Below, piece after piece: positions 2,394 through 34,647 of a stretch of DNA of 64,000 nucleotides. The notes under the pieces were generated by a model that saw only the letters and a list, made by a program, of their open reading frames with translations, was not told where the DNA came from and ran no database searches. Numbering within the stretch: the stretch's first letter is position 1; each line of letters opens with the position of its first letter. Source of the stretch: Mycoplasma elephantis ATCC 51980 (lineage in GTDB: Bacteria; Bacillota_I; Bacilli_A; Mycoplasmatales; Metamycoplasmataceae); the NCBI RefSeq assembly GCF_000687815.1, contig NZ_JHXU01000003.1, positions 1 to 64,000 of the forward strand, read 5' to 3'. The position numbers and the translations under genes were made by a program.

Positions 2394-2425
2394 AAAATAC
2401 TGTTTTTTTGAATAACAATATTTTT
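2394..2425 (-). terminator. Putative terminator of the restriction-modification locus
   Basis: An 11-bp stem with one G-U pair (AAAATATTGTT / AACAGTATTTT), loop ATTCAAAA, followed by T-rich sequence on the minus strand. It begins at the stop codon of the specificity gene. The stretch 2077-2393 shows no other gene. Confidence 0.55.
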
Positions 2426-3551
2426 ATTTTTTTTCTAAAACTTCCTTTGTTTTTTCAATTTTTTTATCCGCAAACAAAACTACTTCTTTAATAACAAGTT
2501 TTTTTATAGCTGATATTAAAGTTTCCATATAGGTAAAATCTATTTCACCATTTTTGGTTATGGGGAGTTGGGTTATATCGTTTTTTAAGTTTTCTCTTCG
2601 CGGATACCCGCTATATCCACCATATCCCAAATTATTGATTAACGAACCTATAAATAATTTTTGGTTTAAGTTCCAATGTGGCATACACATAATTAAAATA
2701 TTATTTGCTAAAAGAAATTGCCCTTTATGATAAGTTACTGTTCCACTATATTTGCCTCTTGTTGATATTGTTAAGCTATCTTGAAAAACTTCTCTCTCGT
2801 CTGGAATATCAGTTGTATAATATTTTATACCATTATTTACTGTTTTGCCACTTATTACTGGTAAAGAATTTTTTAAGTATTTATTAAATCGATTTATCCA
2901 TTGTTTATTTTGACCATATACCCATTTATCAACATCAAACAAATCCCCAATTCTAAAATCTTGTCATTTTAAACTTTCAAAATTTTTAATTGCTTTTTCT
3001 TCTTCACTAGTTAATTTATAATCATTTAAACCAGTAACCTTTAGATAGGCCTCAAGCTCGGCAAAACGCTGAGCCTCAAGCTCGGCAACAAAGCTTTCCA
3101 TAAATTCAAAATCGATTTTTCCGTCTTTAGTTATGGGGAGTTGGATATATTCTTTTTTTACCTTATTCCAACCAGATTTATTTCCTCAATTATATTTTGT
3201 ATATATTTTATTTAAAGACGCAACAATAAAGTGATTTATTTTCTTAATATTTATGTTGTCATCTATAAATCTAAATGCGTAACTATCTTGCAAAACTGTA
3301 AAATCATGAGGCTGATAGAATGCTTTTCCAAAGCCATTAGCTGTTGCTGAAAATACATTTTTTAAAATGGTGGCATTTGTTCTTTTTATATATCTCCCTA
3401 TTTGATTATTTGACAAAACAGCTGTTGTTGAAGGTAAATCACCACTTTCATTATTTATAACTTTGTTGGTTTTAATTTTTTCAAACAAATTCCTAATCTT
3501 AAACTCGCCCCACTGAACATTATTTAGCTTTTGTTCCAGTGGGGTATCTAT
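2424..3551 (-). CDS. DNA specificity (S-like) subunit or domain of BcgI-like/type IIG restriction-modification system
   Basis: About 375 codons encode two target-recognition domains. Each opens with a similar motif (VQWGEFKIRNLF near the start, LKWQDFRIGDLF about 200 residues later) and closes with QLPITKDGKIDF / QLPITKNGEIDF. This is the repeated half layout of HsdS/BcgIB proteins, which recognise a bipartite DNA site. The centre carries two AELEA helical repeats. No ATG, GTG or TTG start with a ribosome binding site lies before the first recognition domain. The frame is entered exactly where a -1 slip on seven A's at the end of the methylase would put the ribosome, so it is probably expressed as a C-terminal extension of the methylase. 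A less likely start is TTG at 3488, which would remove part of the first domain. Base composition is less AT-rich than neighbouring genes, hinting at transfer. Confidence 0.75.
3049..3086 (-). repeat. 24-bp spaced repeat coding AELEA helices between the two recognition domains
   Basis: The 14-mer GCCTCAAGCTCGGC (plus strand) occurs at 3049-3062 and 3073-3086, a 24-base period, coding AELEAQRF-AELEAYLK. It sits in the central spacer of the specificity subunit, like the TAEL-type repeats of HsdS, whose copy number sets the spacing of the recognised half-sites. Confidence 0.75.
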
Positions 3552-3557
3552 TTTTTT
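3508..3557 (-). promoter_or_regulatory. Candidate -1 ribosomal frameshift signal: A7 slippery site, 6-nt spacer, stem-loop
   Basis: On the minus strand the methylase ends ACA AAA AAA TAG. The heptamer A AAA AAA (3557-3551) is in the classical X XXY YYZ phase. Six bases later a perfect 8-bp stem starts, CCCCACTG (3544-3537) pairing with CAGTGGGG (3515-3508) across a 21-nt loop, extendable by G-U and A-U pairs. A -1 slip reads ATA GAT ACC and enters the specificity frame. This GC-rich stem is striking in such AT-rich DNA. Alternatives are length variation of the A7 tract (8 A's would fuse the frames) or transcriptional slippage. Confidence 0.55.
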
Positions 3558-5634
3558 GTAGATTCATCCTCGCTTTCATTTTTTATTAGATTTGAAACTT
3601 CCCATGCTAAATAATCAGCTACCGTTTTTTTAAAATCTGCTAAATCTGGTCTCGTGTCAATTGACAGCATTTGATTCCAATCTGCCCCATTTTCTGGATC
3701 AATATGTCCCTCATAATATTCTTTTTCTGTAAAAATATTAAGCTTGTCTTTGCCAAACTTCACAAGATTAACAACTTCTTCATATCTGCCTAATGCATTA
3801 TCTGTATCTTTTAAATTTATGTTTGGTTTCTTTGCTTTTTTCCTATCTCTTCTAGTATAACCATCATTAGAAAACTCAATAAATTTTACTACATCATCTT
3901 TTTCATGGGCTTCTCCTACCCTAAAGACATAAATATAGGTCTGTACATTCGATTTGCCAATAAATAAATCTCCCGGCATTTTTATACTTGCTAAAAGTTT
4001 TGAATGTTTTAAAATTTTTTTGTTATATGGAATAGCTTGGCCACTTCCAGTACTATTTTGAATAATAACAGCCCCATATCCCTTATCCATCATCGATAAT
4101 GCTTTTTCTACGAAAATCATCCCATTCCCAGCTTGCGAATATGGAGGATTTAATACAAAAGCAGTAGCGGGAAATTTATCTTCCGTTCTACCAAAGCCAT
4201 ATTTACCGTCAAAGTCTAAAAGGGAATCAGCGTTTATAATATTAGAAGATCCATCCCCCATTAAAATCATATTTAAGACGGCTAACATATAGATATTTGA
4301 TAGCACCTCAATACCGAGTAACTGCTCAGATTTAATATGTGCTTCTTTTCTTAAATACTCATCGGGAGACTTTATCTTTTCCTTTGCATCTTTTAGCATC
4401 TCATTCATAGCAGCGACAAGAAGACCTGCGGAACCTGTTGCGAAGTCCCAAACATAAGAATTCATATTAACTCTTGTTAGTTTTACAAGAAGTTTTGCCA
4501 CATAAGAAGGAGTTAAGATTACATCATTTAACTTATCTTGAGTAAAGCCAAGCCATGAATACATTTCATTAAATAATTTGCCTGTAAAGTCAGTTGTGAG
4601 TCCTATTTTATAATAAATGCCAAGATCATCAACAATCTTTGTAAAAACCCTTTTTAATTGACTTTCTCCATCGACTGGTTTATTTATATTTTCAGCAGTT
4701 AAAGTGTTTTGGAGGGTTCTAACAATTAAATCTCTTTTGCTATCAGGTAGATTTTTCTCATTTAAAAAGGCTCTTATCTTTCTTAGAACAATATCACCGT
4801 CAGTGTTGCCTTCTTCAATACTGGATTTTAAATCATCTTTCCTAAGGGGGGCGACCTTGTCGGCAACCCCTAGCGTTGCGATAATTGTAGCGGCAACAAG
4901 GTAAACTCTATCATTTTCAGACAAACCCTTTTCTTCCTTGTAAATATCGTTATTTAACTTATTAAGGCTTGCTTGAATCTCTTTTTCTTTTTGTTCCCTT
5001 AACCTTTCGATTTCTTCTTCACTTAATGATAGTTCTTTAACCTTGGCGATAAAATCATCAAAGTTTGATTTTTTAAGAAAAGAAAAATCAGAAAATTCTC
5101 CAACTTTTTGACCAATTCCAAAATTTGATTTAGAAACAAAATAAACACCTATTTCATGTTGAAGTTTTCCCAAATCATCTTTATAGCCAGTCATACCTAT
5201 AGCAATAACATCAGTATAACTGGTATAATGCAAAATAGCATTAGCATAATGAACGGCACCATTCACTGCATATTCTTTAATGATATTATTATTAGGTTGT
5301 TTCTTTTTAACATCATTCTTTACCACTTGCTTTGCCACTTGCTTTGCCACTTGTCCATTTGGATCTAATTTGACAAGTTTATCTTTATACCCTTTATATT
5401 CAATTAAAATTGGATAATAATCGGTATTTTTATCTTTTAATAAAAGTTTACAATCTGGTCTATTTCCACCAGTGCCCCCCCCTTAGAAACATAGTTTTCT
5501 AGAGCTTTATCAATTTCTGTATTTAAGTTTTCTTGCTCTAATTTGTATTCTAGATTATAACTTTTTAGCCAACCATTACCAAGTTCAGCAATATTAGGTT
5601 CTACTGATTGATTTTTTTTCATAATTTTATTCAT
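3548..5634 (-). CDS. Phase-variable nuclease-methyltransferase of BcgI-like/type IIG restriction-modification system (frameshifted, OFF here)
   Basis: Start ATG 5634, or ATG 5622 with better spacing from GAAGGG. The first frame gives 65 residues (IAELGNGWLKSY...) and stops just after a G8 tract. The next frame continues without any start: RPDCKLLL...ILIEYKGYKD (a PD-(D/E)xK nuclease signature), then ~600 residues of an N6-adenine methyltransferase with the SAM motif DFATGSAG and catalytic NPPY (VLNPPYSQ). With 9 or 6 G's both parts fuse to ~695 residues, the family layout of nuclease plus methylase. With 8 G's a TAA lies directly before the tract in the methylase frame, so the full enzyme cannot be made by normal translation. 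The methylase part might be weakly made from an internal GTG at 5350. The protein would restrict and methylate DNA together with the specificity domain downstream. Base composition suggests acquisition by transfer. Confidence 0.85.
5323..5353 (-). repeat. 12-bp tandem repeat coding QVAK units
   Basis: CCACTTGCTTTG (plus strand) is present twice in full and once in part, coding repeated QVAK between the nuclease and methylase parts. Copy changes would stay in frame and alter only the linker. Confidence 0.75.
5475..5482 (-). repeat. Poly-G (G8) contingency tract in the nuclease-methylase gene
   Basis: Eight consecutive C's on the plus strand (G8 on the coding strand) in a genome where such runs are rare. 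The codons before it (VSK) and after it (GTGGNRPD) are in different frames. Nine or six G's would restore the reading frame, so this tract acts as an ON/OFF switch by slipped-strand mispairing. Confidence 0.85.
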
Positions 5635-6266
5635 CCCTTCACTATTTTAATTTTATTGTTAAAAGTGTATTTTTAAAAATTATAAAAGATTTTTCATTTA
5701 ATAAAAAAAATATAAATTTATAAAGTAAAACGACTTCATTTAATAAAAATAAATATTGTTTTTTAATCTAAATTGATTTCTTAATTTTGGTTAATTTCAA
5801 TTTATTTTAATATTAATTTAAAAAATAAAATTGTTTTTTTAAAATCAATTAATGTTAACACAAATCCCACATCACTTGAGCATCTTTTGTTTTCAAAACA
5901 AGCGATGCGATAAAGTGCCATGGCATTTTTTGCTTCCTTAATTGTTCATTAACCATTAAGGTGTTTATTTATTTTTAATTTAAATAATCTTTTGATACCA
6001 TTATTTTTGAAACATATATTTTACTTAGGATCTTTTTTCTTTTTAAAGGGTAAAACTAATTGAACTTCATTTAATTATTCTTTTGTGTATTGGGTTCACA
6101 AATTTTACTACATGAAAAAGCACTAAATGTAAATTTAACTTTAATGTTGGTAAAACTAATAATAAGTTCTTAGTTTTTTTATTTTTATCCTTTACATTCT
6201 TTACATTTTTTAATATTATTTATAGTTTTTTTATTTTGAGCAATATATATCAAATATCAAAATATT
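5635..6266. other. Intergenic region, no gene seen; two palindromes at 5880-5926
   Basis: No credible reading frame or known RNA was recognised. The notable part is a less AT-rich patch with a hairpin at 5880-5908 (GCATC / GATGC outer arms, TTGTTTT / AAAACAA inner arms) and the 10-bp palindrome TGCCATGGCA at 5917-5926 followed by T's. It lies upstream of the restriction-modification genes and downstream of the CvpA-like gene. It could hold a terminator, an operator, or the scar of an insertion. Confidence 0.4.
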
Positions 6267-34571: not shown

Positions 34572-34647
34572 AGGGGTATAGTTCAATCGGTAGAACAACG
34601 GGCTTCAACCCCGTGTGTTGTGGGTTCGAGTCCTGCTACCCCTGCCA
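34572..34647 (+). tRNA. tRNA-Trp (anticodon UCA) reading UGA
   Basis: 76 nt: acceptor AGGGGTA / TACCCCT, anticodon loop CTTCAAC with anticodon TCA, T-loop GGTTCGAGTCC, encoded CCA. The UCA anticodon decodes UGA as Trp, as well as UGG by wobble. It is the molecular basis of the alternative code seen in nearly all genes of this window. Confidence 0.97.

Follow-up and report, generated by a model that had tools for sequence, protein, structure and literature searches.

A putative dnaX-type programmed −1 frameshift signal between the RM and S frames of a Type IIB-like restriction-modification enzyme

Described systems and the junction in Mycoplasma elephantis

Conserved programmed frameshifts in cellular genes of bacteria are few, namely dnaX, prfB, copA, cso2 and some others. 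We analyzed a 64-kb stretch of Mycoplasma elephantis ATCC 51980 (the window; GC 25.6%, TGA read as Trp), in which the nuclease-methylase (RM) frame of a restriction-modification (R-M) system ends at a stop codon and the specificity (S) domain follows in frame −1. Judged from its sequence, the junction of the two is very probably a programmed −1 ribosomal frameshift signal of the dnaX type, which would make both RM and an RM-S fusion. The signal of Escherichia coli dnaX consists of a Shine-Dalgarno (SD) sequence 10 nucleotides (nt) upstream, a heptamer and an 11-base-pair (bp) stem (PMC5009743). The junction described here resembles that of the dnaX gene (tau/gamma) in its internal SD-like sequence about 10 nt upstream, in a heptamer of the form X XXY YYZ with a stem a few nucleotides downstream, and in the prediction of two products with a common N-terminus from one gene (PMC5009743). 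It differs from E. coli dnaX in that the predicted longer product depends on the shift and the shorter one is terminated next to the heptamer, in its main heptamer, which is G GGA AAA, and in that the gene encodes an R-M enzyme. The reversed arrangement, where the shift leads to the longer product, occurs in a few bacterial dnaX genes according to PMC5009743.

Among R-M enzymes, the closest architecture is that of the two-chain Type IIB enzymes BcgI and Sau42I, with an RM fusion subunit and an S subunit carrying two target recognition domains (TRDs). An initial annotation of this DNA had called the system BcgI-like, which agrees with the architecture. However, the Sau42I/BcgI-type relatives that were checked (L138 and L139) have an ordinary overlapping S start, and the RM branch studied here is therefore a distinct one; its S, in frame −1, lacks a conserved start codon and would be made as a fusion with RM. 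The single-chain Type IIB enzymes AloI, CjeI and TstI hold R, M and S in one chain, as the predicted frameshift product would, but they are encoded in one continuous frame, whereas here free RM is predicted from the same message. The ratio of one RM to two TRDs in these single chains has been called a mystery (PMC3874165). The window has no continuous RM-S frame of the AloI kind, and among the relatives it was found only in L015, L054, L055 and L078, with one TRD each. The EcoKI genes hsdM and hsdS also overlap in different frames, and an engineered fusion of M and S works (PMC3510504); unlike the present locus, EcoKI uses stop-start coupling, and a slippery heptamer or a stem is not described there. 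The best family matches of our two frames, PADLOC PDLC03616 and PDLC03593, are annotated as two genes with their frame relation unnoted. Frameshifting in an R-M gene was not reported in the literature searched, which included Antonov 2013 (four new frameshift families, none of them R-M), Atkins 2016 and 'Type I restriction enzymes and their relatives' (PMC3874165); it may have been listed earlier in databases or supplementary lists.

The junction comprises the following features (window coordinates):

3548–5482, minus strand: RM frame with the rest of the nuclease domain and the N6-adenine methylase, ending at TAG 3550-3548
3567–3571, minus strand: internal SD-like GAGGA, 9-10 nt upstream of the slip site
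3551–3557, minus strand: slippery heptamer A AAA AAA in X XXY YYZ phase
3548–3550, minus strand: 0-frame stop TAG of the RM product
3537–3544, minus strand: 5′ arm of the putative stimulatory stem, CCCCACTG
3508–3515, minus strand: 3′ arm of the stem, CAGTGGGG
3525–3527, minus strand: CTA (Leu) codon of the −1 frame, at a position that is Leu in 87 of 87 loci (see below)
2424–3557, minus strand: −1 frame after the slip, 377 codons with TGA as Trp, consisting of the linker KKIDTPLEQKLNNVQW and a two-TRD specificity domain

The 0 frame at the end of RM reads GAA TCT ACA AAA AAA TAG ATA CCCCACTG...CAGTGGGG, and the −1 frame across the junction reads AAA AAA ATA GAT ACC CCA CTG. A spacer of 6 nt (TAGATA, 3550-3545) separates the heptamer from the stem, whose 8 bp are perfect and can be extended by G·U and A-U pairs (z −3.9 versus shuffles). 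Only two GC-rich perfect 8-bp hairpins exist in the window, both strands considered, and the one at the junction alone adjoins a slippery heptamer. From the junction layout, the z of the fold and the rarity of such hairpins in 64 kb, we therefore conclude that the initial annotation had observed correctly: it had described a heptamer in slippery phase before the methylase stop, a perfect GC-rich 8-bp stem six bases on, and a −1 frame leading into the specificity domain, and had compared the whole to the textbook frameshift layout, to which the SD-like GAGGA, overlooked at that time, can be added. Its statement that S has no start codon of its own fails to the letter, as an ATG at 3605 lies in the S frame 16 codons before the slip site, and is right in substance, because homologues do not share this ATG and no obvious SD precedes it. 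An Rfam search of the junction region returned no family.

The methylase part matches N6_Mtase PF02384 (E 2e-18) and PADLOC REase_MTase_IIG PDLC03616 (E 7e-210), and the −1 frame matches Methylase_S PF01420 and PADLOC Specificity_II PDLC03593. The latter frame can be read through only with the mollicute code, since TGA stands for Trp at two of its codons beyond the junction, and translation table 4 opens window frames that are broken under table 11. Searches of the PDB with single sequences gave no match; a profile search reached HsdM and RM.BsaXI weakly. The AlphaFold model of the methylase part was of low confidence (mean pLDDT 57.8) and was not used. The gene reported by ARAGORN as 'tRNA-SeC (tca)' at window positions 34572-34647 is in all likelihood the tRNA-Trp(UCA) with which mollicutes decode TGA.

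Conservation of the junction and selection on the stem

Homologues were collected with two queries. The joined protein (RM + S) was compared with 320 genomes of the order, and the RM protein alone, without any junction part, with 84,980 species genomes, of which the best 80 loci were analyzed (table 11). The junction played no part in the choice of these 80 loci, since the query was the RM protein only. Seventy-two of them share one layout, namely a slippery heptamer, a stop, a spacer of 5-6 nt, a stem and S in frame −1; the other eight comprise in-frame fusions (L054, L055 and L078), a different heptamer (L104), loci with their own S ATG (L110 and L112) and cut contigs (L071 and L111). The main set (n = 87) was made up of these 72 loci, 14 mollicute loci and the window. 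The 80 loci, with an RM identity of 70-76%, come from records named Clostridia, Bacilli, Bacteroidota, Gammaproteobacteria, Campylobacterota, Spirochaetota, Verrucomicrobiota, Actinomycetota, Seleniivibrio, Patescibacteria and others, so the gene has clearly moved between phyla. The initial annotation had named conservation of the heptamer and the stem in homologues as a check, and both are conserved across phyla, with compensatory changes in the stem.

A strict X XXY YYZ heptamer was found in 84 of the 87 aligned loci, and in-phase heptamers occupy 0.17% of the other codon positions of the same RM genes. GGGAAAA is the most frequent form (53 loci), followed by GGGAAAG (12), AAAAAAG (10), AAAAAAA (9), GGAAAAG (2) and GGGACAA (1); on the RM tree the change from GGGAAAA to AAAAAAA occurred at least three times, replacing Gly with Lys and keeping slipperiness. 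The distance from the heptamer to a conserved Trp of S is 15 codons in all 87 loci, with zero indels. The eleventh codon of the −1 frame specifies Leu in 87/87 loci, with all six Leu codons in use, evidence of translation in the −1 frame immediately beyond the slip site. In 8 loci the stop lies 3-24 nt farther downstream, with heptamer, stem and frame unchanged, and the codon that overlaps the stop in the S frame is ATA or GTA in most loci.

Twenty E. coli genomes share the 151-nt junction of one homologue without a single difference. An E. coli prophage carries the system, as seen in L134 (Escherichia phage PhiR12_3) and in 30 E. coli genomes, and a scan of viral contigs gave one further frameshift locus, L133. 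The signal belongs to a horizontally spread enzyme branch (many phyla, prophages and plasmids) and not to this organism. Two loci carry comparable elements before a second type of S: L104 has the heptamer A AAT TTT and a strong stem of its own (z −6.9), differently sequenced but equally placed (~5700-5775), and L128 has G GGA AAA with its own stem (2370-2436). Their sequences suggest a frameshift device in this second S type, and hence a device that may be wider than the branch studied.

The signal is present in the sequence and is under selection. The stem was analyzed as a 12-bp stem in a gapless alignment of 66 sequences (A1), where 93.2% of the stem cells are paired, compared with 86.8% with shuffled partners and 34-48% when the arms are slid by 1-3 columns. 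The covariation score in A1 was 0.328 versus 0.204 for shuffled data, and 0 of 500 shuffles reached it. An average of 11.2 of the 12 positions are paired, against 7.7 (standard deviation (sd) 0.18) after synonymous recoding and 10.5 (sd 0.06) when synonymous codons were permuted within columns. Compensatory changes were inferred on the tree of RM proteins, with registers slid by 1-4 as controls; the true register gave 24 compensatory double changes and the slid registers 0-5. The clearest covariation links the silent wobble base of a Leu codon (CTN) to the first base of a Lys, Gln or Glu codon 22 nt downstream (T-A, C-G and G-C). Five Pasteurellaceae loci (L074, L082, L092, L097 and L109) encode HLT or RLT in place of SLN, and there the stem is kept with its register shifted by one base. 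All four in-frame fusions have lost the heptamer, and the minimum free energies of their stems (−3.6, −3.7, −8.1 and −10.7) contrast with a mean of −18.4 in the frameshift loci, the weakest of which has −12.4.

The upstream element is also visible in the homologues: the energy of the duplex with the anti-SD dips 6-10 nt upstream of the heptamer, and the Glu codon at −5 is GAG in 39 of 46 table-11 loci, compared with a GAG share of 24% over the remainder of the gene (p 3e-17, kinship uncorrected).

Alternatives to frameshifting

The alternative that survives best is translational coupling, in which ribosomes stop at the end of RM and restart nearby to make a separate S chain; we regard it as improbable. 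Such coupling acts across a 1-nt overlap in EcoKI hsdM/hsdS (PMC3510504), and overlapping S starts with ATG are present in the Sau42I-like loci L138/L139 and in the lactobacillar loci L136/L137. Within the main set, the TGA stop creates an ATG in the S frame in ten loci (L035, L036, L040, L042, L044, L045, L058, L066, L073 and L106). Since GGGAAAA followed by TGA creates this ATG, frameshifting and coupling could both operate in these ten. An ordinary start of S at this point in homologues, which the initial annotation had named as evidence against frameshifting, is not what the main set shows: only these ten have an ATG overlapping a TGA stop, and in 43 of the 87 loci the open S frame contains neither ATG nor GTG nor TTG ahead of the conserved Trp. 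In eight loci, moreover, the stop has moved downstream. Coupling requires neither a slippery heptamer nor a phased stem, and coding selection acts on the −1 peptide from immediately behind the heptamer onward, as the Leu encoded by all six codons indicates. The annotation of the E. coli homologues also speaks against coupling, as PGAP is forced to start S 68 nt downstream or to label it 'missing N-terminus'.

Transcriptional slippage, by which an A added at the A7 run in some messages would fuse the frames, has still less in its favor and is very unlikely. Runs of A7 or A6G occur in mollicutes and a few others, and Thermus dnaX uses such slippage (PMC5009743). Most homologues, however, have G GGA AAA or G GGA AAG at the same place and with the same stem, where only 3-4 A residues are unsuited to polymerase slippage, and the stem together with the SD-like element fits a ribosomal signal instead. 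There is hardly any chance that A8 is the true in-frame fusion and that A7 reflects either the OFF state of a phase-variable A tract or a sequencing error in a homopolymer. An eighth A would indeed fuse the frames, and a G8 tract elsewhere in the gene looks phase-variable, but all 87 loci show one and the same frame relation, homopolymer or not, the E. coli junction does not vary among the 20 genomes, and the stem evolves by compensatory change. The initial annotation had itself named A8 phase variation as a possible refutation, and it cannot explain why most homologues have, at this very position, G GGA AAA or A AAA AAG. Phase variation, sequencing error and transcript slippage were rejected as general explanations; A8 phase variation and transcript slippage are inapplicable at G GGA AAA sites. 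Finally, it is scarcely conceivable that the stem is a terminator, as no U tract follows it, or a by-product of conserved protein sequence: both arms are coding and Val-x-Trp-Gly is conserved, but the synonymous-codon controls, the compensatory changes, the register shift in Pasteurellaceae and the weak stems of the in-frame fusions all argue otherwise.

Predicted products, stoichiometry and the window copy

Programmed −1 frameshifting at this junction would proceed as follows. The internal GAGG(A) would engage the anti-SD of a ribosome that is finishing the RM frame as this ribosome meets the stem. Some ribosomes would slip back by one base on the heptamer (on Lys-Lys codons in the window and Gly-Lys in most relatives) and make RM-S, and the remaining ones would stop and release RM. 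By analogy with BcgI and BsaXI, RM and RM-S may assemble so that two RM units serve one S with two TRDs; a slip rate near one in two would supply RM and RM-S at 2 RM : 1 S. This ratio is known for BcgI and BsaXI (PMC4027205, PMC3874165 and PMC11997821).

The size of S agrees with this arrangement. The S part after the slip site measures 358-416 codons, the size of two TRDs, in 69 of 78 uncut loci, and only 190-206 residues, with one TRD, in the in-frame fusions L015, L054, L055 and L078, which probably are homodimers with 1 RM : 1 TRD. The presence of two TRDs mostly in frameshift loci and of one TRD in all four in-frame fusions fits the supply of a 2 RM : 1 S enzyme. It is likely, in our view, that this Type IIB-like branch sets 2 RM : 1 S by programmed −1 frameshifting, with RM and RM-S made from one message, and turns to a plain in-frame fusion once S has one TRD. 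Short S frames also occur in L079, L082 and L108, and in L011-L014, which form one mollicute clade and have the second TRD downstream in another frame. L012 and L014 carry an AG-repeat tract (RERERE... or HTERE) between the two TRDs, probably a phase-variable specificity switch, and at least in these two loci this tract accounts for the short S frame.

If this reading holds, S production would be tied to completed RM translation, and frameshifting would be a natural means of fixing the subunit ratio of a defence enzyme with several subunits, as in the case of tau/gamma. This would also bear on the puzzle of single chains with two TRDs per RM, as the non-shifted product would supply free RM and the in-frame fusions have one TRD per RM. 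The specificities of these systems are mis-recorded because annotation pipelines truncate or discard the S gene.

Several observations weigh against frameshifting as the explanation. In E. coli, ribosomes slip less readily on A AAA AAA than on A AAA AAG. Most mollicutes have a weak SD-like element, and the AATGA of ten loci would also allow S to start by coupling. The homologues are related by recent horizontal transfer, so their counts are not independent and the tree-based counts correct for this only partly. The RM frame of the window is interrupted upstream at a G8 tract, so this copy may be off or silent. The features concerned are:

5475–5482, minus strand: G8 tract in the nuclease motif SKGG..GGNRPD; the window has no other G/C run of more than 6
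5437–5634, minus strand: N-terminal part of the RM gene (start of the nuclease domain, ATG 5634), a 65-residue open reading frame ending at TAA

It is the frame break at the G8 tract that leads the N-terminal reading frame into this TAA. Joined in frame with the rest, the N-terminus forms a VRR_NUC-like PD-(D/E)xK domain, slightly below the Pfam cut-off, and the homologues have the nuclease and the N6-adenine methylase in one chain, with RM open frames of about 675-715 codons. The nuclease start is out of frame in L010 (G8), as in the window, and in frame in L007 (G8) and L008 (G9), which have different neighbouring bases. This frame pattern makes the tract look like a phase-variable nuclease switch; it is probably a phase-variable site or else an assembly error. 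Poly-G tracts of 8 were also found in L036, L037 and L064. In the linker between nuclease and methylase, at window positions 5318-5353, a 12-bp unit (AKQV repeats) occurs three times in tandem.

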